Assembly (NCBI GenBank): GCA_951213105.1
Contig: OX578149.1
Span: forward strand, 186,001 to 250,000
Reading direction: 5' to 3'
Length of the DNA stretch: 64,000 bases
Origin: Amaurobius ferox
Lineage: Eukaryota; Arthropoda; Arachnida; Araneae; Amaurobiidae
In this document: positions 16,376 to 62,835 of the stretch, piece after piece
Layout of the letters: every line of letters begins with the position of its first letter
Numbering within the stretch: position 1 is the stretch's first letter
The notes under the pieces: model-generated
Seen by the model: only the letters and a program-made list of their open reading frames with translations
The model's database searches: none
What the model was told of the DNA's origin: nothing
Translations under genes and position numbers: made by a program

Positions 16376-16390
16376 ATCGGCCCCCTCATG
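16376..16390 (-). other. Polypurine tract of copia element 1
   Basis: On the - strand ATGAGGGGGCCGAT directly precedes the LTR start TGTTGGAAAC. This is the expected primer site for plus-strand DNA synthesis in LTR elements. Confidence 0.8.
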
Positions 16391-17590
16391 CAAAAACACC
16401 AACTCTCGGCGCCCATCCACAAAAGGTTACTCTAAAGATCAAGACTAAACAATGTCAAGGTCCTTAGTATCCTAAAAACATAATGTATGTATACAAAAAA
16501 TTTAATACATTAAAGAAATTTATAATACTTATAACTTTTTAGAAAGTGAACAGCCTTTTTCTATATCTCAAAATGGCAACAATCAAATAAGTACACTTCT
16601 CTATTATGCAGATCATAAACATTCTTTAAATTACATGTTTAAGGATAACATAGTAAAAGAAACTGAGTATAACCATACTATTGCCCTTCTTAAGTACTAG
16701 CTCATACTAAAGAAAACTATTTCTTTACTATTTTGAAAATTTATAGAAACATTAAATTTAAAAATCTAAAGATATCAAAAATTTTTGCTCTAGAAAATTT
16801 AGGTGTAATTATTAAATTTAATATTTGAGATTAGAAAATTAATTACACATATCACAATTCAAGTTGTAGAAAATTTAGTGTATAATTATTAAATTTAACA
16901 TTTAAGATTAAAAATTTAAGTCCAAACATCAAATTCAAGTTGTAGAAAATTTAGTGTATAACTATTAAATTTAACATTTAAGATTAAAAATTTAAGTCCA
17001 AACATCAAATTCAAGTTGTAGAATATTTAGTGTATAACTATTAAATTTAACATTTAAGATTAAAAAATTTATTATACACATCACAATTCAAGTTGTAGAA
17101 AATTTAGTGTATAAGTATTAAATTTAAGATTATTAAATTTAACATTTAAGATTTAAAAAAATTTTATTATCTTAGCCCATGACTAGTATACACTATAAAT
17201 ACCAAATACAATGGCAATGATAATAAAAGAAGACACAGAAGGTAAACATACATATGAGATAAGCACAGATTAAAAATTTTATGATTCTTGTGAATTATAT
17301 CAATGATGTACATTCTTGAGATCAGAGACACATTTTATTAACATAAGCAAAAATGCATTATGCATGTAGTAAAAAATGGATATATATTTTTCAAGTGTAA
17401 TGTGAGAAAAGTAACAGTTCACTGTCACATAACAATATATACTCAAGATACATTTCATTTGTATCAATGAGAGAGGAGTAAATCATAAGATGCCCTAACC
17501 ATTTATACTTTGGAAAATGTGTAAAAATTTTCAAGAAAAATTTCTATTTAAACAGTTAAATTTACATTTTAAAGATATCACTACTAAATT
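16391..17590 (-). repeat. AT-rich 3' region of copia element 1 with 76-bp tandem repeats
   Basis: About 1.2 kb lies between the pol end and the polypurine tract, far longer than usual for copia elements. From roughly 16790 to 17165 a unit containing 'caagttgtagaaaatttagtgtataa' and 'taaatttaacatttaagatt' repeats; anchors at 16861, 16937 and 17013 give a 76-bp period. No reading frame. The same arrangement occurs in element 2 with a different copy number. Confidence 0.8.
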
Positions 17591-20150
17591 TTAAAACCCT
17601 ATCCCTTTAAATTCCACACCCAAAAGTCTTTTGACTTTTCCTAATTCTTTGATATCAAATTCTTTACTCAAAAGTGAAACAGTATGGCCTTGTGGCTGTT
17701 TCATAAAAATTTTATCATTAAGTTTTGCATAAAGATATGCGGACTTAATGTCCAGTTGAAAATGTTTCCATTTAAGCATGCAAACGAATATGGAGAAGAA
17801 GGCTCTTATCAAACTAAAATTAATCACAGGGCTAAACACTTCATCATATGAATCCCCTTTTATCTGGGTATATCCTTGAGCTACTAGGCGAGCTTTGAAT
17901 CTTTTGATATTTCCCCTTTCATCCTTTTTAATGGTATAAACCCATCTACTACCGATTATTTTTTGTTGTGAGATGGGTGCAGGCACTAAGTCCCAGACAC
18001 CCCTCTTCTGCATTGTAGCTATTTCATCATTCATGGCCTCTTGCCATTTATCGGACTGGGGAGATTCAATTGCCGATCTATAGCTTTTGGGTATCAAGAT
18101 CTCAACATTGCTTGCTTCCGGTTTTCTTTTGATATCACTTACCCCTTTTTTCTGTCTAAAATTAAACATATGCTGATCATAATGAATATATTGGATTTCG
18201 CACAAAATTTTCTGATATCATTATGAGATCTCAGCCTTTTGTTGTCACCTTTTACTAAGTAGTAAATGTCCGTCCTACTCCCATCAGGCCTAGGTACTGC
18301 TTTCCGTACCCAGCTAATATCTGAGCAGGGTGTCAGATCAGAATCAGCAGGAGAGTCCTCATCCCCACTAGACTTGCTAGTGTCATGGCTCTTACCTGCT
18401 TCTTCCTCTGACACTCCTCCCAAGCATTCTGATTCCGAGTCAATCGACTGAGTAACTTTCGATTTCCTGAAGGTGATCACTTTAGGGTAATTAGGGCCCA
18501 GGACGCCTTCCGCTGCACTTTCTTCCTCAAATCTTACATTACTAGTTTCTTCAACTTTCTTTTTGTTTGCTATATATATCCTATAGCCTTTGGTGCTCTC
18601 GGCATAACCGACCATGATTCCTACTTGGGCTCTCATGTCCAACTTGTTCCTAAGTTGTTTGGCTGTGCCAACATAGGCTTTGCACCCAAAAACTTTGAGG
18701 TGAGCAACGGCTGCCTTCCTACCATAATATAACTCGTGTGGAGTTTTGGTTTTAAACTTGTGACATTTCCTGTTTTTTGTATGTGCAAAACATAAGATCG
18801 CCTCTGCCCAAATCCTGTCACCAACCTGACTTTGATCAAGCATAGCTTTTACACAATCTAGTGCTGTTAGATTAAATCTCTCAGAAACCCCGTTCTGTTC
18901 GGGTGTATATACATTTGACCTTTCTGATTTAATCCCCAATTTATTTAAGTATGCCTTGAATTGGTTGTGACAGAACTCCATACCATTGTCCGTACGGATA
19001 CACAAAATCTTTTTGTCTAGCTGCCTTTCTTCCTTAACTTGGAATTCCTTAAAGATCTTAAACACCTCTGACTTTTGTTTCATGATATACACCTTCCGGC
19101 TGAAGTCGTCAGTTATTGTCAAAAAGTATCTGTTTCCTCCCATTGAAGCTGTAGGTAAGGGACCACACACATCCATATGGAGTAATTGTAAAGGTTTAGT
19201 GGACCTTATCCTACCAATTGGTTTAAAAGAAATCCTCTTAGACTTTGCTAATTTACAATGTAAACAATTAATTTTTGCATATTTTAGTCTAGGGAGTCCA
19301 TTAGCCGCGGAAACTTTACTTGTCTGATATAAATAATCAGTGTTAATGTGGCAATATCTCCAATGCCAGAGTTCAGTTTTATTTAAAACTTCTGAAACCG
19401 AACAACTTGGTTTCCCATTAACTTTTCTCTTTGACTTTGACTTCACCTCAGAGTTATCTTTACTTTTATTTACACTAGGCAAAATTTTCATTTTGTTAAT
19501 ACTGTTCCTATTTAGGGTTTTTTTATCTTTCTTAGAATCTTTATCCCTATTCTGATCCTTTCCATTAGTTTTACGGTCTTCGATATTGCTATTTACTGTC
19601 TGAGTTTCATATTGAGGTTTTAAAAAATACAAGCCTTCTTTTCTTTTAGCATAGAAGTATTTTTCTCCCTTTGGAGTGTTAAACCACAATACCCCATTAG
19701 CCCCTTTAAATGTGTACCCCTGTTCCTCAAGAACAGATGCAGCTAATAAGTTTCGCCTTAACTTAGGTGAAAACATAAAATCAGAAAGAACAATATCACT
19801 TCTTACGTTCTTAAACTGAACAAACATTTTGACCGTACCGATAGCCTCAACTGGACTCCCAATATCTCCCACTGCTAGCGACATAGATGCACCTTTGCTT
19901 TCTTTAAATTTTGAGAACAGATTAATGTCATTGCAAAAGTGCCGCGTAGCAGCGGTGTCAATTACCCAGCTGAGTCTATCACTAGGATCCTGCACAGTAT
20001 TTGCTTCAATTCTAGCAGAAGAATATAATTCTATTATATTAGAGCTAGACTTAAGAGTAGGGCAATTTCTTTTTACATGACCAGCCTTTTTACAAAAATA
20101 ACATGGTCCTTTTTAACCTTTTTAACCTTTTTAACTGGTTTTCCAGTTTT
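17591..20150 (-). pseudogene. Copia element 1 gag-pol, deleted within reverse transcriptase and RNase H
   Basis: In order on the - strand: a CCHC zinc knuckle (CYFCKKAGHVKRNC, ~20070-20110); an aspartic protease active site in WVIDTAATRHFC; a GAG-pre-integrase HHCC region (HWRYCH...CLHCKLAKS); an integrase core with LLHMDVCGP, LCIRTDNGMEF and the glutamate of TPEQNGVSERF; and the start of reverse transcriptase (RWVYTIKKDERGN..RLVAQGYTQ). Reverse transcriptase then jumps from KQPQG to HTVSLLSKEFD, which removes the YVDD catalytic segment present in element 2. Most of RNase H is also missing. A frame change at about 18140-18205 separates integrase from reverse transcriptase and also occurs in element 2. 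The copy cannot move on its own. Confidence 0.92.
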
Positions 20151-20262
20151 AAATATACTGTTATTTTTACTTTTTACATTTATATTACATTGAGACAAAA
20201 ATACAGATGAATTCTGACTTACATGATTTCTGTCACTACGGAGTTGCCGGATACGTCCTTCT

Positions 20263-21230
20263 TTCTGGGGGTGTACACATCATAACCTGTTGGTTATTAA
20301 ATTGTTGAGGTACGAAATTGAAAAATCTTAGCTGGAATTTAAGCAGAGATAGTAGTGATAACAACGTCAAAATGGAAGTTGTAATAAATACAACTAACTG
20401 TAGAGGTGTTGAAAATAACAGTTCCAATTTGGTTCAAATCACTTTTATTTAAGAAGCTAATCCATTGCATTTGCTTACAATATAAATATGGCAATGTAAG
20501 ACAAATCAAAGATACTATATACAAAACATGAGCTGTCAAGCTCATTCATAAGGTTTCAGAAAAAAGAAGTTCCACACTTAGACACATTCTTGGTTTAAGC
20601 AATCTTTACATGAGTAAGTAAAATAAAACTTTTCAAACTTACGTATCAACGTGCATTTCCCGATGCCACCTATAGCTGGTCACACGCTATGGCAAAAACT
20701 TTAAGCATCATGGATTAACACTGCATAAAGTCCACAACACGGAACAACATGGTCTCCTTAACTGAGAACCATTAAATCTTTAAGATTCACTAAAACATCC
20801 GTGTCACCCGATAAACATTATCATGACATTCGACTTCATCGAATAAGACTTTATGTAGCTCCGTCAGCGATCTCTCTAAGACGATCTATGCATCGTAATA
20901 CTGCATCATCTACAGCATCACATCAAAGTACTGCAACGTCGTACTATCTGTACACCATCACGTCTTATCAGTATATGTACACTCTTAAACCAAAAATGTG
21001 TCCAGCTTTTATATCCGACGATGGGTGCGTTCCGGAACATAAACGTTGCCGGCAACGCCCTCTGGATATGCAAAACAGGATGCATGAGCGGCGAGAAGGT
21101 GATTTGCATGATAAGCCCAGTTTTGTCCACATCGCGATTCGTTCACGAGAACGGAAAAATCATTTAGAATAATGACGTCACGCTCCCACGAAACGAAAAT
21201 CGCGATGTAAACAAAACCAAGTTTCCAACA
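20263..21230 (-). repeat. 3' LTR of copia element 2 (968 bp)
   Basis: Begins on the - strand at 21230 with TGTTGGAAAC and ends CCCCCAGAA. One base differs from the CAGCA end of the other LTRs. It is followed directly by the target duplication. Confidence 0.9.
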
Positions 21231-21245
21231 ATCGGCCCCCTCATG
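21231..21245 (-). other. Polypurine tract of copia element 2
   Basis: On the - strand GCATGAGGGGGCCGAT sits directly upstream of the 3' LTR, as in element 1. Confidence 0.8.
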
Positions 21246-22500
21246 CAAAAACACCAACTCTCGGCGCCCATGCTCTCATCCACAAAAGGTTACTCTAAAG
21301 ATCAAGACCAAAAAATGTCAAGGTCCTTAGTATCCTAAAACATAATGTATGCATACATAAATTTTAATACATTAAAGAAATTTATAATACTTATAACATT
21401 TTAGAAAGTGAACAGCCTTTTTCTATATCTTAAAATGGCAACAATCAAATAAGTACACTTCTCTATAATGTAGATCATAAGCATTCTTTAAATTACATGT
21501 TTAAAGATAACATAGTAAAAGAAACTGAGTATAACCATACTATTGCCCTTCTTAAAAACTAGCTCATACTAAAGAAAACTATTTCTTTACTACTTTGAAA
21601 ATTTATAGAAACATTAAATTTAAAAATCTAAAGATATCAAAAAAATTTTAGCTCTAGAAAATTTAGGTATAATTATTAAATTTAATATTTAAGATTAAAA
21701 AAATTTTAATTATACATATCACATTTCAAGTTGTAGAAAATTTAGTGTATAATTATTAAATTTAACATTTAAGATTAAAAATTTAAGTCCAAACATCAAA
21801 TTCAAGTTGTAGAAAATTTAATGTATATATAACTATTAAATTTAACATTTAAGATTAAAAATTTAAGTCCAAACATCAAATTCAAGTTGTAGAAAATTTA
21901 GTGTATATAACTATTAAATTGAACATTTAAGATTCAAAATTTAAGTCCAAACATCAAATTCAAGTTGTAGAAAATTTAGTGTATAACTATTAAATTTAAG
22001 ATTAAAAAAATTTGTTATACACATCACAATTCAAGTTGTCGAAAATTTAGTGTATAATTATTAAATTTAACATTAAAAAAAAATTTAGGTTTTATTATCT
22101 TAGCCCATGACAAGTATACACTATAAATACCAAATACAGTGGCAAAGATAATAAAAGATACAGAAGGTAAACATACATATGAGATAAGCACAGATTAAAA
22201 ATTTTATGATTCTTGTGAATTATATCAATGATGTACATTCTTGAGATCAGACACACATTTTATTCACATAAGCAAAAATGCATTATGCGTGTAGTAAAAA
22301 ATGGATATATATTTTCAAGTGTAATGTGAGAAATGTAACAGTTCATTGTCACATAACAATATATACTCAAGATACATTTCATTTGTATCAATGAGAGGAA
22401 TAAATCATAAGATACCCTAACCATTTATACTTTGGAAAATGTGTAAAAATTTTAAAGAAAAATTTCTATTTAAGCAGTTAAATTTACATTTTAAAGATAT
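21246..22500 (-). repeat. AT-rich 3' region of copia element 2 with 76-bp tandem repeats
   Basis: Co-linear with 16391-17590. The 'caagttgtagaaaatttagtgtata' unit recurs from about 21727 to 22090, with one more unit than element 1 and small 'atat' insertions. There is no coding capacity. Confidence 0.8.
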
Positions 22501-25500
22501 CACTACTAAATTTTAAAACCCTATCTTTAGTCATTGGTTTTGTGAAATAATCTGCTACGTTATCTTTAGTATTGACAAAGTTAATTTTAAAAGACTCATT
22601 TACAACTAAGTTCCTTAAAAGTGATACTTTATATCTATGTGCTTAGTTCTACTATTCTAATTGGGGAATTTGAAAAATTTATTGCTGCCTGGTTGTCACA
22701 AAATATTATACAATTATTTTTGTTAAATTTTAAACCTAGCTTTTTACATTCCTCCATAACGTTTTGCATCCATATCATTTCTTTAGCGGCCTCTGCCATC
22801 GAAACATATTCAGCTTCCATCGTTGACAGACTAACACACTTGTGCTTAAATGTTCGCTAAGAAATTGGTACTTTGTCAATCAAGAATAACATACCACCAA
22901 GTGACACTCTGTCATCTCTATTGGCTGCAAAATCTGAGTCTGAGTAGCAGTTTAGCCTTAAATCACAAATATTTGACAAATTTAACATATACTCTCTGGT
23001 TTTTTCAACATATCCCAACAATTTTAATAATGCATCCCAATGCTTCATCCCTGGATTCTCTTGAAACTGAGACAGAATATTAACTGCATAGCATATGTCT
23101 GGTCTAGTTCTACTGGACAGATAGGCTAGACATCCAATCAAGCTTCTGTATGGGAAACCCTGCATTTGTGTTAATTCACTATCATTCATTGGGCAATCAA
23201 TCTTGCTTAAGATGCTGCCCTTTGCAATAGGTAGTGAGGAAACTGGATATTTGAATCTTTTAAACATCTGACAAACTTTGTCAATGTAATCACCTTGATG
23301 TATATGAAATTTGTTTTCTATCTCCTTAAATTCCACACCCAAAAGTCTTTTGACTTTTCCTAATTCTTTGATATCAAATTCTTTACTCAAAAGTGAAACA
23401 GTATGGTCTATATCCTTTTGTTGTTTAGCAAACAGAATTATGTCGTCTACGTAAACCAGCATTAATACTTTATTCTGGTATATATAAGCACAGTTGCACC
23501 ATTTAAATTTAAAAAAGTTTAATTTTTTCAAAGTGGTGTCAAGCTCTGTATACCACTCCCTTCCGCTTTGATGAAGGCCATATATTGCTTTCTTAAGCAA
23601 ACATACATATTGAGGCTGGTTAGGATCGACATATCCTTGTGGTTGTTTCATAAAAATTTTATCATTAAGTTTTGCATAAAGATATGCGGACTTAATGTCC
23701 AGTTGAAAATGTTTCCATTTAAGCATGCAAACGAATATGGAGAAGAAGGCTCTGATCAAACTAAAATTAATCACAGGGCTAAACACTTCATCATATGAGT
23801 CCCCTTTTATCTGGGTATATCCTTGAGCTACCAGGCGAGCTTTGAATCTTTTGATATTTCCCCTTTCATCCTTTTTAATGGTATAAACCCATCTACTACC
23901 GATTATTTTTAGTTATGAGATGGGTGCAGGCACTAAGTCCCAGACACCCCTCTTCTGCATTGTAGCTATTTCATCATTCATGGCCTCTTGCCATTTATCG
24001 GACTGGGGAGATTCAATTGCCGATCTATAGCTTTTGTGTATCAAGATCTCAACATTGCTTGCTTCCGGTTTTCTTTTGATATCACTTACCCCTTTTTTCT
24101 CTCTAAAATTAAACATTTGCTGATCATAATGAATATATTGGATTTCGCACAAAATTTTCTGATATCATTATGAGATCTCAGCCTTTTGTTGTCACCTTTT
24201 ACTGAGTAGTAAATGTCCGTCCTACTCCCATCAGGCCTAGGTACTGCTTTCCATACCCAGCTAATATCTGAGCAGGGTGTCAGATCAGAATCAGCAGGAG
24301 AGTCCTCATCCCCACTAGACTTGCTAGTGTCATGGCTCTCACCTGCTTCTTCCTCTGACACTCCTCCCAAGCATTCTGATTCCGAGTCAATCGACTGAGT
24401 AACTTTCGATTTCCTCAAGGTGATCACTTTAGGGTAATTAGGGCCCAGGACGCCTTCCGCTGCACTTTCTTCCTCAAATCTTACATTACTAGTTTCTTCA
24501 ACTTTCTTTTTGTTTGCTATATATATCCTATAGCCTTTGGTCCTCTCGGCATAACCGACCATGATTCCTACTTGGGCTCTCATGTCCAACTTGTTCCTAA
24601 GTTGTTTGGCTGTGCCAACATAGGCTTTGCACCCAAAAACTTTGAGGTGAGCAACGGCTGGCTTCCTACCATAATATAACTCGTGTGGAGTTTTGGTTTT
24701 AAACTTGTGACATATCCTGTTTTTTGTATGTGCAAAACATAAGATCGCCTCTGCCCACATCCTGTCACCAACCTGACTTTGATCAAGCATAGCTTTTACA
24801 CAATCTAGTGCTGTTAGATTAAATCTCTCAGAAACCCCGTTCTGTTCGGGTGTATATACATTTGACCTTTCTGATTTAATCCCCAATTTATTTAAGTATG
24901 CCTTGAATTGGTTGTGACAGAACTCCATACCATTGTCCGTACGGATACACAAAATCTTTTTGCCTAGCTGCCTTTCTTCCTTAACTTGGAATTCCTTAAA
25001 GATTTTAAACACCTCTGACTTTCATGATATACACGAACACCTTCCGGCTGAAGTCGTCAGTTATTGTCAAAAAGTATCTGTTTCCTCCCATTGAAGCTGT
25101 AGGTAAGGGACCACACACATCCATATGGAGTAATTGTAAAGGTTTAGTGGACCTTATCCTACCAATTGGCTTAAAAGAAATCCTCTTAGACTTTGCTAAT
25201 TTACAATGTAAACAATTAATTTTTGCATATTTTAGTCTAGGGAGTCCATTAGCCGCGGAAACTTTACTTGTCTGATATAAATAATCAGTGTTAATGTGGC
25301 AATATCTCCAATGCCAGAGTTCAGTTTTATTTAAAACTCCTAAAACCGAACAACTTGGTTTCCCATTAACTTTTCCCTTTAACTTTGACTTCACCTCAGA
25401 GTTATCTTTACTTTTATTTACACTAGGCAAAATTTTCATTTTGTTAATACTGTTCCTATTTAGGGTTTTTTTATCTTTCTTAGAATCTTTATCCCTATTC

Positions 25501-26542
25501 TGATCCTTTCCATTAGTTTTACGGTCTTCGATATTGCAATTTACTGTCTGAGTTTCATATTAAGGTTTTAAAAAATACAAGCCTTCTTTTATTTTAGCAT
25601 AGAAGTATTTTTCTCCCTTTGGAGTGTTAAACCACAATACCCCATTAGCCTCTTTAAATGTATACCCCTGTTCCTCAAGAACAAATGCAGCTAATAAGTT
25701 TCGCCTTAACTCAGGTGAAAACATAACATCAGAAAGAACAATATCACTTCTTACGTTCTTAAACTGAACAAACATTTTGACCATACCGATAGCCTCAACT
25801 GGGCTCTCAATATCACCCACTGCTAGCGACATAGATGCACCTTTGCTTTCTTTAAATTTTGAGAAAAGATTAATGTCATTGCAAAAGTGCCGCGTAGCAG
25901 CAGTGTCAATTACCCAGCTGTGTCTATCGCTAGGATCCTGCACAGTATTTGCTTCAATTCTAGCAGAAGAATATAATTCTATTATATTAGAGCTAGACTT
26001 AAGAGTTGGGCAATTTCTTTTTACATGACCAGCCTTTTTACAAAAATAACATGGTCCTATGACCTTTTTAACTGGTTTTCCAGTTTTAAATATACTGTTA
26101 TTTTTACTTTTTACATTTACATTACATTGAGACAAAAATACAGATGAATTCTGACATGATTTCTGTCACTACGGAGTTGCCGGATACATCCTTGTTCCTC
26201 GGATAACTCGCGCTGGATTTTTTCTAATGTAAAATCCTTATCTTGCCAACGATATATCTGCTGGGCCATCCCTTGAAAGTCGTCCGAGAGGTATCTTATG
26301 GCTTTGAATGCCACATAGACGCTTTCCACCGGGTGCTTAACGTCCTTCAGTTTGGCGACCGCTTTCATTAAACGCGTGCAGAAGATATCCACAGGTTCAT
26401 CTGACTCCGGACGCAGGCTAAAGAACTCATCCAATAAGCGCACTAAATTAGCACGAGTCGGCGCTTCGAAATGTGTCTTTAACTTGTCCCACGCATCTGC
26501 CGGATCGTCGTTAATGTCTATTAACTGCTGGGGTGTACACAC
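22500..26542 (-). pseudogene. Copia element 2 gag-pol, nearly full length but broken
   Basis: The frame opens inside the 5' LTR and enters gag at IDINDDPADAWDKLKTHFEA (26542-26117). Then come a CCHC knuckle (CYFCKKAGHVKRNC), a protease (WVIDTAATRHFC, 26135-25560), the pre-integrase and integrase start (25439-25005), and the integrase core (25012-24086) with its DDE residues. Reverse transcriptase follows (24152-22857) with LVYVDDIILFAK as the catalytic motif, then RNase H with CYSDSDFA, MEAEYVSMAEA and CDNQAAINFSNSP. Breaks include a frameshift in integrase near 25010, a frame change at 24086-24152 shared with element 1, a stop at about 23910, a stop before the last RNase H block near 22857, and a frameshift near 22610. 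The gag N-terminus is missing. Confidence 0.93.
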
Positions 26543-27484
26543 GTCATAACCTGTTGGTTATTTAATTGATGAGGTACGAAATTGAAAAATCTTCGCTGGA
26601 ATTTAAGCAGAGATAGTAGTGATAACAACGTCAAAATGAACGTTGTAAAAATACAACTAACTGTAGAGGTGTTGAAAATAACAGTTCCAATTTGGTTCAA
26701 ATCAATTTTATTTAAGAAGCAAATCCATTGCATTTTCTTACAATATAAATATGGCAATGTAAGACAAATCAAAGCATACTATATACAAAACATGAGCTCT
26801 CAAGCTCATTCGTAAGGTTTCAGAAAAAAGTTCCACACTTAGACACATTCTTGGTTTAAGCAATCTTTACACGAGTAAGTAGAATAAAACTTTTCAAACT
26901 TATGTATCAACGTGCATTTCCCGATGCCACCTATAGCTGGTCACACGCTATGGCAAAAACTTTGAACATCACGGATGAACACTGCATAAAGCCCACAACA
27001 CGGAACAATATGGTCTCCTTAACTGAGAACCATTAAATCTTCACTAAAACATCCGCGTCAACCGATAAACATTATCATGACATTCGACTACATCAAATAA
27101 GACTTTATGTAGCTCCATCAGCGATCTCTCTACGATGATCTATGCATCGTAGTCCTGCATCATCTACAGCATCACATCAAAGTACTGCAACGTCGTACTA
27201 TCTGTAGACCATCACGTCTTATCAGTATATGTACACTCTTAAACCAAAAATGTGTCCAACTTTTATATCCGACGATGGGGGCGTTCCGGAACATAACCGT
27301 TGCCGGCAACGCCCTCTGGATATGCAAAACAGGATGCGTGAGCGGTGAGAAGGTGATTTGCATGATAAGCCCAGTTTTGTCCACATCGCGATTCGTTCAC
27401 GAGAACGGAAAAATCATTTAGAATAATGACGTCACGCTCCCGCGAAACGAAAATCTCGATGTAAACAAAACCAAGTTTCCAGCA
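26526..27484 (-). repeat. 5' LTR of copia element 2 (959 bp)
   Basis: Begins on the - strand at 27484 with TGCTGGAAAC and ends CCCCAGCA at 26526. The sequence immediately inside is mid-gag coding sequence. The primer-binding site, leader and gag start that should follow a 5' LTR are absent. Confidence 0.9.
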
Positions 27485-35884: not shown

Positions 35885-36086
35885 TGTCTTTTACATTTAA
35901 CTAATCTCGACCACTGCGTTATGGGTTCGAGTCCCACGTAAGGCATAGATGTTTGTGTTGTGGGCGTAGTGTGTTCTGTTCCCCTCTGGTGCGCCTGGGG
36001 CAACGTCTTACGACGGCTAAATGGTTCACGTTTTGGCCACTGGCGAATGACGAAAGTCAAGTGCCTGGCCATTAGAAAAAAAAAAC
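35885..36086 (+). mobile_element. tRNA-derived SINE (truncated 5' end)
   Basis: A perfect RNA polymerase III B box GGTTCGAGTCC lies at 35924-35934. It is followed by an unrelated ~130-bp body and a terminal A run at 36077-36086. A convincing A box is not seen, so the 5' end is probably truncated or decayed. The SINE sits inside the P element and its antisense supplies the false C-terminus of the transposase frame. No clear target duplication was found. Confidence 0.6.
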
Positions 36087-37560
36087 CAATTATTTCTTAT
36101 AGATTTTAATAAATGAACAGGATCATACATCAAATACAGAGGTATATCAGGATTACTTGGATTATATACAGCATCATTAAATTTATCATGTTTCTTAAAA
36201 AAAGCAAACATGCTTCTATTAATATTGTTGTTATCAGTAATAACAAACAATACATTAAGATCAAGTTCTTTTAACTTGCAAATTAACATAGATGCCAAAT
36301 TATAGAGCTTTTGTCCCGTAAATGTTGAAACTGGGGCAATTGCTATTACGTCTTTATAATTTGAAAACATAGATGTAATCAAAAGCACTTGGGCAGTTTT
36401 TGCTTTTTCATTACTATCAAAACAATCACCGGTAACTTTACCACATTTAAATGTATATCTAGGATCAACATAAATCTCATCAATTAAGAGAGAGACAAAT
36501 TTTTGGTCTTCGTTTAAACATTGTACCCTATGTTTTAAATAACTATTACACAGATTAAAAAAATCTGAATCCACATTTAACTTTTTTGAAATTCTACTTA
36601 ATGTTCTCACATGAGGCAATGTCAACACCTTTGAATTTCTAAATGCCTTATAGCACGAAGAACTAGATAAGTATATTTTAAAGCATAGAATAAACAGTTC
36701 TTTTGAAAATCGAAGCTGATTTTTTGGTTTTTCTAGCAATTTTACTTGTTCAATTAAAAAGTCTAATTTGGCGGTGCAAATTTCTAAACATACCTGCTTC
36801 TGTTTCTCCAACAGCTGCACTGCGACTTCGATATAATTAAGTTGTGATGGAGTAGAATGCAGTTTCACATGCACTTATTAATAAATCCAGATCACATTTA
36901 TTTGTAATTAGGCTAAATTGTATTCCACATTTTTGTAGCTGCTTCTCACTGCACTGGAGATTTTCCAAAAACACATCGAACGTTTTTTCTTGGCATATGC
37001 TGATACTCGCAATAACACATGGCACAGATGATGCATTAATGCAAACTTTAAAAAGATACAGCTTGTCATCGATTGAAAGGTGGGTCCAATTTTCTCCTTG
37101 AATAGTACAAAAATAAACCTTGATATCTTCTAAAGTTGGCAGGCTGTTGTTTTGCTGCTCTTGTTGAAAAGTCATTATACTTTTAGAAATTGCCGCATCT
37201 AATTGCTCATTTTCACGATTTTCCATAGTCCTCCTTTTCTTTGGAATGGGTTCTGTAAGATGCTTGGCAATATTTCCGACAATTGTGGGATAGGCATCCG
37301 TTTTTAATTTTAACCTGTCTCTTTTAATTATTATTATCTTCCCAGATTTATCTGTAAAAGTGTCTTCACGAATGATGAATGATTCGTCAAAGTGATGAAT
37401 ACACACTCCGGAATTTTTCCCAGCTTTGAAGTCCACATGATGAATTTTTATCTCCCAAGTTTTTCTCAACGCAGAATCTTCAGGAAACTTAAAGATTGGA
37501 ACGTAAGAAGTCTTTGACGTATAGTTCGACCGGCAACCGGGAACACGTACGAGGCATTGA
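36077..37560 (-). pseudogene. P-element/THAP9-like transposase, broken
   Basis: The N-terminus is a THAP C2CH zinc finger. The second cysteine region (VPGCRSNY) is around 37520, the C-x2-H pair is in GVCIHHF, and the closing AxPTIV box is at the usual place. The first cysteine and likely ATG (near 37555) are out of frame with the rest by a small indel. After a coiled segment, a frameshift near 36850 leads to the catalytic region: SLLIDEIYVDPRYTFKCGKV, VITDNNNINRSMF and YDPVHLLKSIRNNW, all typical of P transposases. The product is cut off at about 36077 by a SINE, so the C-terminal part is lost or lies in the degraded 35317-35880 stretch. Some animals have domesticated THAP9; this copy is clearly dead. 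Confidence 0.9.
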
Positions 37561-38099
37561 TAATTACGCAGATATAAACTATTTAAAAAATGGCTCTAAA
37601 GCACCCATGAACGTTAGTTAAATGATAATAAAGCATAAGAACAACTCATTACGCACGAAACACGATGCTATAAAACTAATAGAACATTCCGAAAACCTCA
37701 AAAACGTTTTGCAATCATGAGCCACTCCACGAGGGACGCTGACCGCGCTTGGATTTTTGTTCTCTTCTTTCTGAATGCTCCCCTTTTACCGTGACATCAC
37801 GACAATTTATCCTCAGTGGCGCCACGGCCTGTGTGTAGACCGGCTGTGGTCCTACCTTTCACTTGGCGTGAAAAAAATCTTTGGATTGATACCATACTTG
37901 ACAATGGGAGGCTAATAACGCCAGGAACAAAAAAAAAATTGTATCGCTGCTATTTTTCACAGCAATGATTGAAACTATAAAGTCTTGTGATCATCGAGCG
38001 CTTTTGTGCATGATGCAGCCATGTTAAAAAATATAAAATTTGAATTAAAAACAAAGTTCTATTCTAGTTCTACATTTTTTATTGTTAACAACAAAGCTG

Positions 38100-50294: not shown

Positions 50295-50822
50295 CATAGA
50301 ATCAGGGTGGATAAAAATCATGATTTTTTTAAAAAAATCAAAAAAATCGGATTTTTTCGATTTAAATCGGATTTTTTTGATTTAAATCGGATTTTTTTGA
50401 TTTATATTAGCTATTTTCAAAATCAATTTTTTATATTTTTCAGATCAGAAGGTAGGTTAGACCATATTAATGTACTGTATAATTTAAAAAATAATAATTG
50501 AATATATATTAAAAAATATATGAAGGGGTTAAAAAAACCCAAAGACTTTTTAAATAAATAGGGTTTTTTTAATTGGGTTATTTTATTGGAGAAGAAAAGC
50601 CATATACTATCTTTTTCCTCCCTGCCATTTTAGTAAATGAATCTACTAATTTGCTTTCTATATCTATTATACAACACAAGTTTAGCTATCCTCTAGAGTC
50701 AAGTTTGCAACAGAATCTGAAGTGTCCTGCGTACTCCTTCCAAATAGTTGAAAAACAGGTTTATTGGGCTACAGGTGGATTAGTGTCCAGAGAGAAATAT
50801 TTCTTTGTCAGTTGCAGGGATG

Positions 50823-53800
50823 CAGTGGCGCACCCAGAATATTCCTAAGGGGGGGGCCATTGGTGTACAAAATTTTTATGAAGGAGGATGACTCCTCGAT
50901 AAATTTTCCGAGAAAAAATGATCAGAGGCCATATCAATTAACAAGGCGGTTGTCTTTTTTTGTACATTTATTTTTATCAAATTACTAACAATTCTTTAGT
51001 GCAGTGCAAGAGAATTGAATGATTAGAAGAAGTAGTAGTAGATATTTATACAAAACAACACAAATTAAGAAATAGATGAAGATAAAATTATTTGTTCTGG
51101 TCTGCTTATACTGTATACTTGTTTTCAACCACTCTCTCATGATTACATATTGTTATATTATTCAATTATGATCTATACATATTCATAAAACGAAGTCCAG
51201 CCTCCTGTTTTTCTTTGTAGCCAGAGCATTAATTATCTGGTCTGGATCAATTTCCACTTCACGGTGAATGTTCATTGACGCCAGTCCATTCAGTCTGGTT
51301 TCACTCATACTGTTTCTCAAGTAAGTTTTCAACCTCTTCATTGTGGAGAATGACCTCTCAGCACTGCTTGTTGATACTGGGAGGGTGGCATACACTTTTA
51401 AAAGTTCAAACACAGTTGGAAAAGTCCTTTGGTCTCAAAAGTTAAGCAGTTCGATTGGGCTTTTAGTTTTCTTGTTCAATGCAGAGACCTTCATGTACCA
51501 CAGATGTAGTTCAGCTTTTAGAGTATTATCTGATCTGGGTCCTAAATCATCTGCAAATTTCCTTGATAAGGCAACAAATCTCTCGTTTTCTTCCAATGTC
51601 GGCTGCCTTCCATTCGGAATGACAGATGCAAAACTTTGTAGAAATTCCTTATGTTTGAGAAATTTTTCATGGAGGTGAGTGATGAAATTATCAATCCATG
51701 GAATGAAAATAGAAAGTCTGTAATATTCTTCAGGAGTCTGTACGTTGAAATTTGATCTATAAATTTGTCTGGTGGCACGGCGTGGTAGAGTAATGTTTTC
51801 TCCATGCTGTTCCAGCTTCTTAACAGCTTGTTCAAACAGATGGTGAAACTCGTTCTCTGCGTTCTCTCGAATTATAGATATAGCTTTCAAAACGTCTTCT
51901 ACGTCACTCACAGCAGTTGCCAGATCAAGGTTAACTTCCTGCAGCTTTTCACTCAGACGAACACTGTAGCTGAGTAATCTGTCAACTGAAACAAGTGCTA
52001 TGACAAACTGTGATGTTAACATTGAACATAACAAGGTATGAGCCTCTGTTGATGTCTCCTTGTCATTCCAGGTAGTAATCTCCTCCAGAGCCTCGATTAC
52101 TTGATCAAACAATGAAACCATAACTGTGACGGCATCATGTCTCTCCACCCAACGAGTAGGGCATAATTTCTTCAGTTTTTTGGCACTGATTTCTGTCTCT
52201 CCCTGATTAGCTGCATTAATTTTGCTGGTGAGAACAAGGTTTCGTTTTGGTGTGTTGAAAAAACTAGAGATTTTCCCTATTATTCCAAAGCTGTTTCGGA
52301 TATCCGGAACTCTAGATGAATAAGTTATGGCTAAGTTCAAACAGTGTGATGCACAATGAACGTAGGGGGCTTTGGGGTGTTGCTTATATATAATTGCTTG
52401 GGCGCCATTGTACTCTCCACTCATTGCAGAAGCTCCATCGAACCCTTGTCCACGGAGGAAAGACGTATCAATGTTGCAGTCTGCAAGGCCTTTAAGAATA
52501 GCATCTGCAATTGCTCGACCTGTAGTTTCAGTCAGGGGCACAAACTTAAGGAAGTTCTCCACTATCTTAAATTCAATTTTATACTTATCATTTGTTTCAA
52601 ACCGTTTCAAATAACGAACGCAAAGTGTCATTTGCTCTACCGTTGCAATATCTGTGGTTTCGTCACATAAAACCGCAAAACATTTGGCCTCATTCACCTC
52701 AGTTGCTATGTGCTTCACAATGGAATCATTGCATGCTGAAATAATCTCATTTTGTATATTCCAACTTATGTAAGTTGCATTTTTTGCACAACCTTGTAGA
52801 TGAGTTTTCAGTATTTCTTCTCCTGCATCAACTCGGAGTCGCAAAAGGGCTCTAAAATTTCCTTCGCCTTGGCATGGTTCTGACAATACGTCCAAATCCC
52901 CACAGTCTCTATGCCCTCTCATGGCCAGCCCTTGCCTTCCACAAAAAATCACCGTTTTGATAATAGGTTTAAGAATAGCCCTATTCTGCAAAACTTGTTT
53001 TTGCTTTCCTCTGTCCATTACTTGATCCACAGGAACCGTTTTTCCTTCCGTGACCCTTAAGAACTCATCGGCTTTGAGAACTGAATCCTTATGATAGAAA
53101 AAATTTTCATGTTGACTGAATTTCTCCAAGGCCTTCTTCCAATTATTAAATCCTTTTGAAACAAGTTGACCTGTAGCTTGTGTGGATCTTAAACCGACTT
53201 CATGGGGTGCAAAGAGAACACAAAATTTGCAATAGGCACTGTCCTCTGCCTTTGAGTAAGCTAGCCAGTTATGCTTACTCAGCCAAGATGAGCAGAACTT
53301 CCGAGTGTGGTGAGGTTTTCCTTGACTTGATACAGCACTAGTGACAGTAGCAGGAAAACTGTAATTTGCATATGGTTCCCAAAGATTTTTTAGCGCTGTT
53401 ATCCTATCTTCATCTGTGAGGTTAGATTTCTTGACATAATTAGAAATATCTGCAGCCAGAATTTCTATTTCAACTGTGTTTGGTATTGTGTTTTGTCCTA
53501 CCTTTACCTCCTCACAAGCGTTTGAAGACAGCCCGGGGTCACGGCTGTTGCTTGCTTCGACTGCAGCCTCATCAATGTAACAAGAGCTCAGGGAAACGTC
53601 GTTGGGAACGTCACTATTTTCAATCTTACTTTTTTTTAAAAAATAATTTCCCAGTGTCTGTTGGCCTAGCCCTTTTCGTTTTTCACTCATTGTCTTTTTT
53701 TTTTACCTTGCTCCTCAGTTATTCAAGAACAAAATTTGCTATATAGCCGAAATACGCACATAAACACACACACTGATCGTTAAAGATGCATTTCACTGTA

Positions 53801-54483
53801 AGATCAGTTGAAAGTTCAGGACCATTATTAAATTCAGCTATTCACCACGCAGGCCCTCGTTCCGAAACTACCAATTCACTGTTATCACCTTGTGTCGTAA
53901 CGTCGCACTTTATTTCAACTCACAGCAACACTTAATTCGCGAAGCGTTGGCACGATCTATTTATTCACTTCCACAATTTTCTCACTGGGTAAACGAAATC
54001 CTCGAGTTTTCGAGCGAACAGCCGCTTCCCCGCCGTTCACTCTTTATATAGGGCCACGGAGGCGCCTGTGACGTCACTCTACACAGCACTGGTATAGTAC
54101 GACTCCAGCGAGAAGGCATTTGGGTCACGTGATTTTGGACGAGTCCATTAGTTAAATTCAATCACAGGTTGAAACGTCTTAAGAAGAACGGGTTTCCAGA
54201 ATTGGCGCCTTTAGTGCGAATTAATTTATAATTTGTACAGTACGATAAAGAGCTTTATATGTATAATTACATTCAGTGTAAGTGTTGGGATATGCTGGAA
54301 TTGTTTTCTTCACAATGATTAAAATTATTTATTACAATAATGGCTGTAAATGTTTTTTTTTTATACTTTCTCGAAGGCAGACCTAGTTCTCCCTTGTGCT
54401 GACAGCGCCCTTCGCGTTTTGCTTTGTCAGCCCAAGGGGGGGGGCAGGGCCCCCTCGGCCCCCCCCCCGTGGGTGCGCCACTG
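50823..54483 (-). mobile_element. Inner hAT transposon with ZMYM1-like transposase (3,661 bp)
   Basis: Terminal inverted repeats CAGTGGCGCACCCA on the left and the same on the right (reverse complement, 54470-54483), with an exact 8-bp duplication CAGGGATG at 50815-50822 and 54484-54491. Both ends then enter G/C homopolymer runs. The transposase occupies most of the interior on the - strand. About 0.8 kb of untranslated, moderately GC-rich sequence lies upstream of it (53691-54483). Confidence 0.95.
51183..53690 (-). CDS. hAT transposase, ZMYM1-like (TTF-type zinc finger), one in-frame stop
   Basis: The ATG at 53690 opens 751 codons. A basic start (MSEKRKGLGQQTLGNYF) is followed by a TTF-type zinc finger at residues ~130-200 (RKFCSSWL...YCKFC). 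The RNase H-like catalytic core has aspartates in LCDETTD (~343) and GQGFDGASAMSG (~418), and the HCASHCLNLA motif is at ~445-455. A helical insertion region completes it. The frame meets a single TGA at 51435-51437 and then continues in the same frame to 51183 with LPVSTSSAERSFSTMKRLK, the hAT C-terminal dimerisation region. So one nonsense change is the only visible defect. The protein would excise and insert the element, creating 8-bp duplications. Animal genes of this type are often annotated as zinc finger MYM-type protein 1-like; the exact terminal repeats show that this one is a transposon. Confidence 0.93.
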
Positions 54484-54855
54484 CAGGGATGCCAATCTAG
54501 ATAATTTTTAGCTAGATATCCACATAATTTTGACTTCATCTAGCTAATGAAAATGGGCATCTACATCATGACTACAAATCTAGATAATTTTGACGTCATC
54601 TATCTAACGAAAATGGGCATCTAGATAATTCCTAAAAATCTAGATAATTTTATGAAATTTCACCAAAATCAAATAATTTTTTTGTGTAAAATTGAGATGG
54701 TGTTGGTAATTATCTCAAAAGGAGCATCACAGTTTTTTACTAGCATGAGTTATGTAAAAACAAAGCTCCGGTATAGAATGAAAATAAAGCTACTGAATGC
54801 CATTTTAACAGTTAAATTAGGACACACGCATATGAGAAATGTTATCATTATAACC

Positions 54856-54870
54856 CCCCCCCCCCCCCCC
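54856..54870. repeat. Poly-C tract
   Basis: A run of C within the middle hAT element, generating proline codons in a meaningless frame. Confidence 0.8.
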
Positions 54871-56069
54871 AATTTCGAAGGACATAGAAGCTATGGTTAC
54901 ATATCGAAAATGTACAACAAATGAAGTTTTATAGTTTCTCAGTCAGGCACTTCAAATTTTACAGATGAGGATTATGATTCGTTAATGTGGAAATAAAGTG
55001 TTTTATATTCTTATCAGAGGTGGAGCTACAATTTTTCTCAAAGTTTTTTTTTCTACTGTGATCAAGAGCAAAAAGTACCAAAAAGCCTTAGTTTTTGTAC
55101 TGTATAGGTTGGGGACTATGGAATTGAAGAGAGGGAGGGACAAAGAGGATAATGCCCAGGGGCCCTATGATCCTAAGAGACCTCAGAGTGATTTTTTTAA
55201 GTCCTTAAAAAATAGGTAAGGGTAGGGATTGGTGGGGGAGCCCAATCTGCAAAACTGCTTAAGGGCCTGTCAATCCTATTCCCACAACATTGTTTGCTAT
55301 ATTGGTATGCGCCAGCAAAAATTACAAAAAAAGGAAGGAACCAAATTTTCTTATTTCTATGGTAAAAATTATTATAGCACATATAAATAACATTTTAAAA
55401 GGTATTTTAAATTTTTGTAGCTTGAAATATGCATGTAAAAACTGTATCGCAACCACTGATCCCAATAAATCATCACAAGAACAATTAAAATGTTCAATAT
55501 TGTCTAGCTATGTTTTTAGATAACTGACAGAAAATCTAGATAATTCTAGATATATTTTGAGTGATTTTTAGCTATAAAATTAGAAAATAGGTTGGCAACA
55601 CTGGTCAGTTGTCATTGTTACTTGATTTTATACTCCAATGAATAGTGTTATCTCCATTGACCGAGAGTTAAGGAAAGGATTTCAGTTTTTTTTTTATATA
55701 CTCTAAAGATGTCTTGATGTGGAATTTTATTATTTTAAACATTTATTCTGTTCCAGGTTATTTTAGCACAAAAATACAAAAAAAAATTTCAAAAAATGAC
55801 AAAATTAAAAAATGATTTTAATCAGTGAATTTTTTAAAAAATCGAGTGATTTAAATCGTGATTTAAATCATGATTTAAATCAAGCTGATTTAAATCAAAC
55901 AACCCTGCATAGAATACTCATTCATAAATGTTTTAAATTTAATTTACTAATTGAATATTCACTTCTTCCTACACCAGGATCGCCCATACAAATTGTAGCC
56001 CCTCTACAAACATTTACCATTTACCCTTCCACATTCATTTCCCCCTCTTTATAGACTTTTCATATTTTC

Positions 56070-56399: not shown

Positions 56400-59300
56400 C
56401 TAGGGTTCAATCACATGACGACCAATGTGTTCAAATCTGTGAGCAGAGTAGGCCTCACATTCACATAGAATGTGAGCTGCAGTTTCTTCGCCGTAATTGC
56501 AGCCTCTGCAAAGCGAATTCTTGGAGACACTCATAATATTAAGATGTCTCTTGAGGGTGCAGTGCCCAGTAAGGAGCCCAACAGCTCTCCTGATGCCAGT
56601 TCTATTGAGCCTGAAAAGTTCCTTTTGACGTGTACTAGGGCAATGGCAGTTGAGAATTTTCGCTTGCCTTTGTCCCTTAGTGTCACGCCAGTTCTTACAT
56701 TGAAGCTTCCTGAAAATGTCATAGACAATTCTTCTAACAAGGTCATTGGGAATACCCAAGGCCGGCTCAGGGCCCACAAAAGGAGTACTTGAGCCTTTCC
56801 TAGCAAGTTCGTCTGCCAATTCATTGCCAGGAATGCCCGAATGACCAGGCACCCAGTACAGAATGACATTATTATTGCTAGCGATTTTACAGAGTGCATT
56901 ATAACATTCCCATACTAGGGAAGACGTCACTGTGAACTTCCCCAGAGCCATAAGAGCAGCCTGACTGTCAGAACAAATGAAAATCTGGCTATTCTTATAC
57001 TTCCTGTCATAGCAAATTCTACAACACATAAGGATGGCAAATACTTCAGCCTGAAAGACAGTAGTAAAATTGCCAAGCGGATAAGACAGCTCAGTGCCAT
57101 CATCAGGGCAACAAACACCAGCACCAGTACTTGTGCCAATCTTCGAGCCATCTGTGTACCATACAAAACAGTTTCGTTTATTGTAGGTGGGAGTCCTCTT
57201 CCAATCATCCCGCGAGGGGACATGAATTTCATAAGGCTTGTCAAACATAAATTTGACATGAATGCCATCAGGTGGCATACAGAAATAAGGATGACTAGCA
57301 ACATTACTGTTAAGTTCACCCCAAGATAAATACCTTGAGTAATCTTTCCAGTATTTCAGATATTTGAGTCTGTTCATGCAGATAAGTGCCTCTGCTTCAA
57401 TACGCATGTAGAGCAGATGCAAACCAAGTAAAAGTTCAAGAGTTGCAGTAGGAGTGGTTTTCATGCATCCGGAGATTGCAATGCACACCACCCTTTGAAG
57501 CTTAACTAAATCAAGTTTAGCAGTTTCACATCTAATTCTGGACCACCAAACAATGGATCCATAGGAAATGATAGGACAGACTACCATCGAGTAAATCCAA
57601 TGGATAGCTCTGGGATTTAAGCCCCAGGTTTTCTCAATAGCATTCCTACAAGACCAGAAGATTCTTCTGGCTTTAGTCGTGCAATAGTCCAAGTGTCTCT
57701 TCCAATTGAGTCCCTTGTCAAAGTAAATTCCCAAGAATTTAGCCTCCTTGGAGCAAATAAGCTTCTGCCCAAAGAAGCGAATATTCCCAAGATTAAGTAT
57801 ACGTTTCCTTGTAAACGCAACCAAAGCAGTCTTCTGTGGATTAACCGTAAGACCTGCATTTTTGCACCATGTCTCAACCCTCCTGAGAGCAGTAGACATT
57901 ATGTCAGAGACAGTGTTGCCAAATTTGCCCCTAGCAATGATGACAACATCGTCTGCATATCCAACGCAAGAGACGCCAGAAATATTGATGCTTTCCAAAA
58001 GAGAGTCCACAACTAAACACCAAAGAATTGGTGAAAGCACACCTCCTTGTGGACAGCCCGAAAGTGCATGCACAGTCATACTATCACCAAGTAAAGATGC
58101 ACAGATATACCTGTTAGATAACAGGTTCTTGATCCAATAAGAGATTGTGGTATCAACAGTTTTTCTGTCAAGAGCAACAAGGATGGTGTCGATGGGTACC
58201 TTATCAAAGGCACCTTCAATGTCGAGAAAGGTAGCAAGAGCAATTTCCTTGGCATTGAAATTTCTCTCCAAAATAAAGGAGAGACTGTAAAGAGCAGTGT
58301 CCGTAGATTTGCCTGGTTGATAGGCATGTTGAGAATTAGACAAGGGCTTAGAGGCCAGAATCACTTCCCTTAAGTACCTATCAATAAGCTTTTCAATAGT
58401 CTTTAAAAGAAAAGACGTAAGGCTAATAGGCCTAAAAGATTTGGCCTCATAGTAATTGTCCTTTCCAATTTTCGGAATGAAGATTACCTTAGTATGCCTC
58501 CACGCATTTAGTATGTGACCTAAGGCAATACAGGCTCTGTAGATACTTCAGAGAATGGGAGCTAGCACCTCAATTCCCTCCTGGAGAAGAATTGGAATGA
58601 TGCCATCAGTTCCCAGAGTTTTATAGGATTTATGGGAATTAATTGCCCATTTAACCTTATCAAGAGTAACCACACTCCTGGCAATGCTCCAACTTTTATC
58701 ATCAGAAGACGTGGAGCAGGCATTAACATTGTCACAATGATCATAAAGATAAGAAACCGGAAAGTGAACCCTGAATAGCTCAGTCAGGGTCTCTTCACCA
58801 GTAACAGTAAAGTCACCATAAGACATCTTGACAGAGTTCAGATTACAATTTCTATCTCTTGCCATCAACTTAACAAGTTTTGCTACGGCAGGGGCATCAT
58901 TAATACCTTCGCAGTGCATTCTCCAAGAATTCCTCTTGGAGTCCCTGACTGCTTTATTATAAGAGGTGAGGGCAGATTTATAAACCTGCCATTCACCATT
59001 TTTCTTAGCTCTATTAAAGAGCTTCCTGCATTTCCCATGCAACCGGCTGAGCTCATTAGACCACCAAGGAACAATCCTTGGGAAGTCAGCATTTGTGGTT
59101 CTGCAGTTACTATGGAAAGATTGGATAATGGCCTGTTGCACAAAGTCAACAGCCAAATCCAGGTTTTCAATAGAGAAATACTCACCATTGTGACTAGCCA
59201 ACTTGGCCCTGAGATCGTCTTTGTAGGAACCCCACTTAGTGTTCCTAGGGTTCCTACCTTTATCAGCTATAGGCTTTACAGAACCTTTAACAGAAAAAGA

Positions 59301-59929
59301 AATTAATTGATGGTCAGACAAAGATATATCATCTGAAACCTTCCAATTAACAACGTTATCATAAGCAGAACTATTGCTTAAGCTGATAGATGCTTTACAG
59401 TCACGAAGGTAGGAGAATTACCCTTATTGAGTACATAGAGCTTATTAAGAAGAATCTGTTCTAAGAGATCATCACCTCTACGGTTACAATTACTACTGCC
59501 CCAAACAGTGTTATGGGCATTCGCATCGCGACCAATGATCATTTTTTTGTCATTACAATACTCAGTAAGATTGATAATGACATTAGAAAGAGTTTCCTTA
59601 TCTTCATAAGGAAGATAGGCAGAAGCAAAGATGTATTCCATCATATGTTCATCAGTTTTAAGTTTCACACTGATGGCAACATTGTCACCATCGAGGAATT
59701 TAACCAGATGAACAGCATTGAGCTTGTTGCTAACAGCAATACAGGCTCTAGGTCTGGTACAGGATGTGTCATAAAAGACATTGAATCCTTTGATCCCTAG
59801 ACCCAAAATCTTTCCATTACAGGTCCAGGGTTCCTGGATGAGAGCAATATCAGCTCTACCATTGAACAGCCTTTTGCTAAGAATGGCAGAGGCAGAACGA
59901 CTGTGGTGCAGATCAATTTGCACAACAGT
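56400..59929 (-). pseudogene. LINE ORF2: endonuclease, reverse transcriptase, RNase H; two breaks
   Basis: Apurinic-type endonuclease at 59929-59378 (ADIALIQEPW, GRDANAHNTVWGSS). A frameshift follows near 59380-59330, where SLSDHQLISF closes the domain in a new frame. The linker and start of reverse transcriptase are at 59321-58548, ending at an in-frame stop near 58548. The same frame reopens through 58364-56400. Catalytic motifs are TFLDIEGAFDKVP, GCPQGGVLSPILW and VGYADDVVI. RNase H follows (VWYTDGSKIG, QAEVFAILMC, FICSDSQAAL, YWVPGHSGIPGNELAD), and then a cysteine-rich CRGCNYGEETAAHILCEC end. The ATG at 59950 lies inside the inserted hAT terminal repeat and is not the natural start. With two breaks the copy is inactive but young. 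Confidence 0.92.
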
Positions 59930-60087
59930 CGTTCTGTCAGTGGCGGCCATTCAGAGGGGCCGCGCGGACCCCCTTGATCAAGCACTTCAAATTATTTTAG
60001 TTATATAGGTTAATTACAATTTTTAAGGAAATTATCTGAATTTTATGTCAACTAAAATTCGAATTATTGAAAATAAGTGATGAAATT

Positions 60088-60102
60088 GTCACTAGATGGC
60101 AG
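60088..60102 (+). promoter_or_regulatory. CTCF-like motif (weak)
   Basis: 'gtcactagatggcagc' fits the CTCF core consensus. It resembles the motif at 849-861, but here it lies inside the hAT element. Sequence match only. Confidence 0.25.
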
Positions 60103-61189
60103 CACTAACACTTTGAAAGAGCTCTTTTATGATGCTCTTTTCATACTATATTAAGTCTATAGGGGAAAATACTGCATTACAGGGAAAGACGAGGGATTTT
60201 TAATGAGGCCGCGTCCCTGTATTGCCTCTGGGCAGATAGAATGAACGGTATTTTAATATAACGGCAATAGAAATTAAGAGTTAAAAAAACAGACATTGTA
60301 ATATTTCAATCCGATGAGAGCCGCGGCAGCACCCGCGGCTCGTCGTCAAAAAGAAACGAATGCTGTGAACGACTAACTCGAATTGGCAAAGTTTCGCTAA
60401 TTTGGCCTCGAATTTTTCTTGATAAATGTGTGTTTTCTCTGTCACTTCTTTTTAAAATAATAAATTTGGATGTTTAAATAAATATTTGAAAATAAATTTC
60501 TGTATTTATGTAATTCTGATTTATTTTATTGATTCTATTGACCTAGTTCTTTCAGTTTTGGTTAATGGCGAAATAGTTTAGTATTAGATACAGAAAATAG
60601 AAATCCAAAAAAGTTTCGATACATATTTTGTGCTTTTTACTTAATAAGTGGTGGTTATTTGTGGTATTTTGGGGGTTTCTGTTCTTCGCCTTCGGTAGAA
60701 AAATGCATTGTTTGAGGCACTCAGTTTAGTTTTGACCCACCCATCCGTATTACTGAAACTGTTTCACTCCGTAAGCGTCCGGTGGGAAGGGGGGGGGGGT
60801 CATTTCTGATGTATGGTGGTTCTGTCCTTCGGAAAGGGGATCATTTCTGATTTAGTGTAGTTCTATGCTTTGTTTGTGACGAATTTCAATGCGTTTGACC
60901 TCTTAATTGTTTAAAAGCCACGAGAATTGTATTTGTGGCATACCCGTGGATATTTTTAGTGAACACTTTCAGAAATGTGTTGTCTGAGGGGGTGGGTCTC
61001 TTGACTTACTCAGCTGTCTTACTTTTTCAGCTATTTAACATTAAAGATTGAAAAAATTATAAATATTTGTTAAAGAATGTTAAAAAACAATTTCAACCAG
61101 ATACTTGATTCTTTGATCTGACGCTGTTTTCCTTAAAATCTCCCCCCCCCCCCCCTCCCTTCACCGGAAACTACTCAATCTACCTGATT

Positions 61190-61830
61190 TTGCTTCTAAT
61201 TTCATTGAAGATCAATACTGCTCCGATACTCCCTAGGCGTAAATTTTACTTGAGGTAGTCCTAAAATGTCTCATCTAGCTTCCTAATTAAGCAATTTTAA
61301 ATCTACTGGTGTCTATAGTCTCTGCACTATCTATACGTGTATCGCCTGGACATGCATATTTTTTTATTCAACCCCCCCTGAGCGTAACTTTTAGTTTAAC
61401 TAGCCCGCACGGTTTTACATCTTGGTTCCTAAATTGAGCGATTTTGAATCTTCTGGTAACTACAGTCTTTATACCATTTGAATATAAATCTCTTTCATAT
61501 CAATCCACTGGGCGCAACATTTACTTTAAATAGTCCCCCTCTAATTTCACATCTCGGTTCCTAATTGAGCCATTTTGATTCCGCTGGTGGCTATAGTCCC
61601 GGCACCATTTGTATATGTGAACTGGATATACATATTTATTGTGTCATCTCCCTGGGCGTAACTTTCTGTTCGGTTAGCCCCCCAACCCTCCCAAATTTCT
61701 TATTTCTCATTCTAATTGAGCGATTTAGATTTTGCTGGTGGCAATCACTTAGATATACAACCTTATTATGCCAACCCCCTGGGCGTAACTTTTACTTTAA
61801 GTAGCCTCAATATCATATTTCGGTTTTACA
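61190..61830 (+). repeat. Degenerate ~130-148-bp tandem array inside the hAT element
   Basis: 'attgagcgattt.gat.ttgctggtggc/taac' recurs near 61286, 61433, 61567 and 61713. Each is followed by 'tagtc..cac.atttg/tata', then 'ccccctgggcgtaacttt.acttta..tagcc'. Four diverged units; short frames through them are repeat by-products. Confidence 0.75.
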
Positions 61831-62835
61831 AAAAATGCATCGCCTTGGTTCCTGAAATATCAGTGTACGATATTTCAAGGCCGTACGATGTTTACATTTT
61901 CCGCTACAGACCTTACACACACATCGACACACAAATATCGTCTGTTGTTATGTAATATGAAACAACCGTGGTGAAAGAGGGGAGACCCTCCTCTTTTCCA
62001 TATTTGCATTTTTATCTATCTTAGTGACTTTTGCTCCGATTTTGATGCAATTTTCACACTGCATTTTCTACTCTACAATGGACCCACTCGATATGCTCAC
62101 TCTAAACTTTGATCCACTTTTGTTGCACCCGCGCAACGAGCTAACCACTTATTGTTATAAAAACCGATTGCTATATATAGTGACTGCTAGCAGGCAAAAC
62201 TCGCTAGTATCATTTTAAAGACGAATAGAGATAAGCATAAAGCATAAGAATTTTCTGTAAATTCCAAATTAATTATTGTATTAAAAATAGTTCCTTTGTT
62301 TCTGCATATAAACGGCCGTAGATTTAGTTGGTTTTCGCTCTCCAATTATGTTACTGTTTGAGTTACAAGGACGATCAGGTATATAACTATTAGCCATAGA
62401 GTGTATATGAGAAAAATTGTGTGCATTTTGGGTGTAAAAACATTTGCGCTCATCATAAAAAATACTGGACATGTATACGACTGAAAGTATTTAATTTTTA
62501 CAAATTTGATACAAATTTATTTAGAAACGTATTCAAATAATTTCCATGGTTGCAATAGGCTCTTATTCATTTCAAGGAAGCTTGCACAACGTATATCAGC
62601 GCAAGTAAAATAATAATTTGGCATACGGCTGTTTCGAGGTAATGCGGGAACCAATTTATCAGTGCCGGACAAACGACGAACTCGAAGTCTAAACGACGTA
62701 GTTGGCACAAACTGAGGGATATATATACATAAATACATAGATGAGCGCCTTCCTCAACATATCGCTCACGAGCCGCCACTGCGTTCTGTTCAGAAGACAG
62801 CCCATAAACAAAAACAAAAAGAGGGCAGAGAAAAC

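Follow-up and report, generated by a model that had tools for sequence, protein, structure and literature searches.

Three nested hAT-type elements in a spider genome, the innermost inserted in the terminal octet of its host element

The Tip group of hAT transposons has been defined with BuT2 and Tip100 among its members, and BuT2 carries a DUF4371 domain and makes 8-bp target duplications; its authors state that they did not investigate its target preference (PMC3942097). For Buster elements, the accessible portion of the Mar paper gives the target consensus nnnTAnnn (PMC3517528). Nesting of one hAT element in another is described for maize, where a Ds-l4 lies within a Ds-l3, and, according to the available sections of that study, Ds types nest less often than others, the probable reason being that chromosome-breaking properties arise in Ds elements once nested (PMC3260210). 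Here we describe three hAT-type elements nested one inside another in a 64-kb window of the spider Amaurobius ferox (the whole stretch analysed, positions 186,001 to 250,000 of contig OX578149.1, assembly GCA_951213105.1; coordinates below are those of the window). A sequence-only reading had proposed this nest, and our base-level re-check returned the same outer (50303-55907), middle (50815-55603) and inner (50823-54483) structures, with hAT-type ends and exact target octets at all three levels.

The inner element sits 8 bp inside the left end of the middle one, as had been proposed. Its target, CAGGGATG, was the opening octet of the middle element; exact copies lie at 50815-50822 and at 54484-54491, and the second of these also serves as the middle element's rebuilt left end. 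The duplication of the middle element, GTCAGTTG, is exact at 50807-50814 and 55604-55611, and that of the outer element, CATAGAAT, at 50295-50302 and 55908-55915. The inner element is 3,661 bp long and bounded by 14-bp perfect terminal inverted repeats of the CAGNG type (CAGTGGCGCACCCA / TGGGTGCGCCACTG). The middle element, which as a complete unit occupies 54484-55603, begins with CAGGGATGCCAATCT and ends with AGGTTGGCAACACTG (reverse complement CAGTGTTGCCAACCT), the two ends agreeing at 13 of their first 16 positions. From its ends and octets, the outer element consists of a left part of 512 bp (50303-50814), within which the middle element's left duplication lies, and a right part of 296 bp (55612-55907); its termini are CAGGGTGG on the left and CAACCCTG on the right. 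Counting one copy of the middle duplication within the 512 bp, its uninterrupted length is 808 bp, and that of the middle element is 1,120 bp, in agreement with the approximate 0.81 kb and 1.12 kb given earlier.

We asked how often such structures arise by chance by scanning the window for strict CAGNG...CNCTG ends, 150-8000 bp apart, with an exact flanking octet, and by comparing the result with 100 dinucleotide shuffles of the window. The strict scan found 4 structures against a shuffle mean of 0.04 (maximum 1), and we rejected chance repeats as their source; the fourth, at 59938-62781, is separate from the nest. Loosening the end pattern raised the count to 5, with a shuffle mean of 0.58 (maximum 3), and the fifth (19256-25195), found by this pattern only, lies inside a Copia array and looks like a chance match. 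When one mismatch was permitted in the duplication with strict ends, a scan run without shuffles, no further structures appeared in the window.

The nesting itself secures the order of insertion as outer, then middle, then inner, as the earlier reading had it. Insertion of the middle element after the inner one was considered and rejected: the 8 bp to the left of 54484 (CGCCACTG) differ from the 8 bp to the right of 55603 (GTCAGTTG), so a reversed order of the last two insertions fails.

The same reading had concluded that a hit at the very terminus should disable the middle element, which our analysis does not support. One CAGGGATG octet was stranded at 50815-50822 and the other is joined to the rest of the middle element at 54484. 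Because the inner element targeted, and duplicated, precisely the octet with which the middle element starts, 54484-55603 is a complete 1,120-bp element with its full left end rebuilt and both ends present. The left neighbor of 54484 is now the end of the inner element and no longer the middle element's own duplication. hAT excision works on the element ends, and we know of no requirement for a matching duplication. We infer that the middle unit may structurally still be mobilisable in trans.

The inner element encodes a transposase on the minus strand with a hAT-type RNase H fold. The first part of its open reading frame (ORF; 51435-53690, 751 amino acids) contains DUF4371 (PF14291; Pfam search, E = 2.1e−20), a domain of the Tip group, and terminates in a TGA stop at 51435-51437. 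The frame continues beyond this stop (51183-51434, next stop at 51183-51185) and there encodes the hAT C-terminal dimerisation region (PF05699, E = 1.7e−11 in the piece 51188-51434) together with the conserved glutamate of an AERSFS motif (51357-51359), which we take from Hermes to be a catalytic residue. The inner copy is thus not autonomous: the stop precedes the conserved C-terminal glutamate, so transposase should have to be supplied from elsewhere. Named relatives of the transposase, among the 120 listed, come from hemipterans, beetles, a spider, a bee, a cockroach and others, and also from a prawn and a rotifer. The 751-amino acid protein by itself matched no PDB chain at E = 0.001. We also searched for relatives with DNA context, a long shot as these collections are viral or prokaryotic. 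No stretch was confirmed among the 4 that matched the pattern of the 751-amino acid protein in viral contigs, the 35 that matched that of a 55-sequence alignment in viral contigs, or the 36 that matched in genome contigs, and a pattern for the left end of the middle element had 0 matches in viral contigs.

The middle and outer elements appear to be non-autonomous and to belong to families other than that of the inner element; since the three terminal sequences differ, we read them as three families. The middle element has no long ORF, the longest listed ATG ORF wholly inside it being 90 amino acids, and the ORF list holds no ATG ORF of at least 80 amino acids wholly within either part of the outer element. 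Near the left end of the middle element the motif TCTAGATAAT is present four times, and near its right end once. A run of 17 C also lies inside the middle element (54854-54870), and G or C runs occur near both ends of the inner element too; such runs could be mis-sequenced.

How recent these insertions are is a separate matter from their order. The earlier description of all three as recent holds modestly for the inner element and weakly for the other two, where it has the exact octets to go on. At 10% pairwise divergence we compute that an octet pair would be identical with probability 0.43 and all three pairs with probability 0.08, and exact octets are weak evidence of age because 43% of pairs and 8% of triples thus survive. 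The inner frame, which is better evidence of age, has one premature stop in 835 codons and no frameshift, suggesting a divergence of about 1.1% (95% range about 0.03-6.4%) under a rough neutral model in which 3.5% of random substitutions are taken to create stops. This near-intact frame makes "recent" fair for the inner element only, and the premature stop could predate its insertion.

Three successive, ordinary cut-and-paste insertions of hAT elements very probably explain the nest. An 808-bp non-autonomous element would first have inserted at CATAGAAT, and a 1,120-bp non-autonomous element of a different family would then have entered it at GTCAGTTG. A 3,661-bp, transposase-bearing DUF4371-type element of a third family would next have entered the 1,120-bp element at its outermost 8 bp. 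Repair of the gaps left by cuts staggered by 8 bp, a mechanism that we infer from Hermes and other hATs, would have copied the target octet and so left the 1,120-bp element with one complete left end (54484) and one complete right end.

Some observations weigh against this explanation. The ends of the outer element are the weakest among the three: the inverted repeat is short, with 6 identical bases (7 of the first 8), and is followed by AT-rich sequence. A second copy of the outer or the middle element was not found within the window, where the outer parts have short matches of 36-43 bases and nothing longer. In the structural model, the glutamate-bearing stretch (P0002 770-779) has a predicted local distance difference test (pLDDT) score below 50, and when solved structures were searched, none of the stretches fell below E = 0.01 by itself (best about 0.023). 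Because of this low pLDDT and the lack of a significant single stretch, the assignment of the catalytic glutamate relies on the conserved motif and on what is known of Hermes.

An addition to successive insertion would be that the terminal hit was non-random, with the ends of other hATs favored by the inner family's transposases or by their target complex. Terminal octets make up 2 of the 1,113 octets possible in a 1,120-bp element, a probability of 0.0018 under uniform insertion, and, by a hand count, the target CAGGGATG and the octet that opens the inner element, CAGTGGCG, are the same at 5 of 8 positions. Set against these figures, this is a single case spotted after the fact, survivor bias may favor harmless positions, and the window's other element that carries CAGTGGCG at its ends went into CGTTCTGT, which is unlike a hAT end. 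We consider such a preference very unlikely, and no preference for transposon ends can be demonstrated from one case. Inside an element, an insertion keeps its host complete only in the terminal octet of one end or the other, so nests of this kind could accumulate. It is very unlikely, though conceivable, that a DUF4371-type hAT family is drawn to the terminal octets of other hATs, by which benign, mutually mobile stacks could build up.

Alternatively, the inner element could have entered the middle one elsewhere, and 50815-55603 could then have transposed as one unit into the outer element. GTCAGTTG flanks this composite at left and right, as expected in either scenario, but at its left end foreign sequence begins after no more than 8 bp of the middle element. 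As a rule, a hAT transposase requires a longer end than this, through subterminal binding, and the complete unit starting at 54484 would be a better substrate for transposition than the composite, which makes this route very unlikely. Finally, that an assembly or sequence artefact created the nest is extremely improbable: the window is repeat-rich and the arrangement was read from the assembly alone, but three independent exact octet pairs at hAT-type ends are not expected from a misjoin.

Nested transposons are ordinary, and the terminal-octet placement is a curiosity that neatly illustrates how a nested insertion can do no structural harm. Successive insertion at this locus gives a clean relative chronology for three hAT families within one genome. 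The case also sets right a mistake that is easily made, in that insertion into a terminal octet, with duplication, regenerates the end that was hit and need not inactivate it. A genome-wide excess of such placements, if found, would indicate that transposon ends are chosen as targets.

Other repeats surround the nest in the window. The hAT-type structure at 59938-62781 is 2,844 bp long, with 10-bp perfect ends (CAGTGGCGGC/GCCGCCACTG) and an exact duplication of CGTTCTGT, and is located at the 5' side of a minus-strand retrotransposon of the long interspersed nuclear element (LINE) type. LINE-type ORFs span 56400-59950 on the minus strand; the frame at 59378-59950 runs into the hAT structure, so its first codon, ATG, lies within the hAT end. 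A 715-amino acid LINE part has reverse transcriptase and RNase H relatives, the three best with 62-65% identity (among the best 120 of 1,338 relatives), and the best relative listed under a name comes from a spider, Parasteatoda, with 58% over 78% of the query. The Copia-type array (15412-27481) holds three copies resembling long terminal repeats (LTRs) that are 94-96% identical (15412-16372, 20268-21227 and 26530-27481) and internal parts that are 97.4% identical (17688-20260 and 23635-26193), as if two elements shared a middle LTR. On the minus strand at 36026-37595, two ORFs resemble, by eye only, a broken P-element or THAP-type transposase.

Among described systems, the inner element may be likened to the Tip group by its domains and ends: as in the available description of that group, it combines DUF4371 and a C-terminal hAT dimerisation domain with short inverted repeats and 8-bp duplications, although BuT2 has a five-exon gene where the inner element has a single frame broken by a stop (PMC3942097). 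The target CAGGGATG departs from the Buster consensus nnnTAnnn as given in the accessible part of that paper, and a single insertion cannot define a preference (PMC3517528). The structural model of a relative resembles the Hermes transposase, itself a hAT (structures 4d1q, 6dww and 2bw3), but with about 15% identity over the structural alignment and a TM-score of only 0.38 by query and 0.61 by target, and the inner copy in the window is truncated by a stop. Insertion into the end of a transposon has a parallel in Drosophila P elements, which insert into the ends of other P copies, also with 8-bp duplications, but belong to a different superfamily from hAT. Among the papers listed by our literature searches we recognised none that describes one hAT entering another at its terminal octet, and we do not claim that such an account is absent from print. 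The nest resembles the nested Ds of maize, as far as the available text describes them, in that a hAT element lies within a hAT element (PMC3260210). Unlike in nested Ds, the end sequences differ among the three elements here, and one transposase is therefore unlikely to act on all of them.
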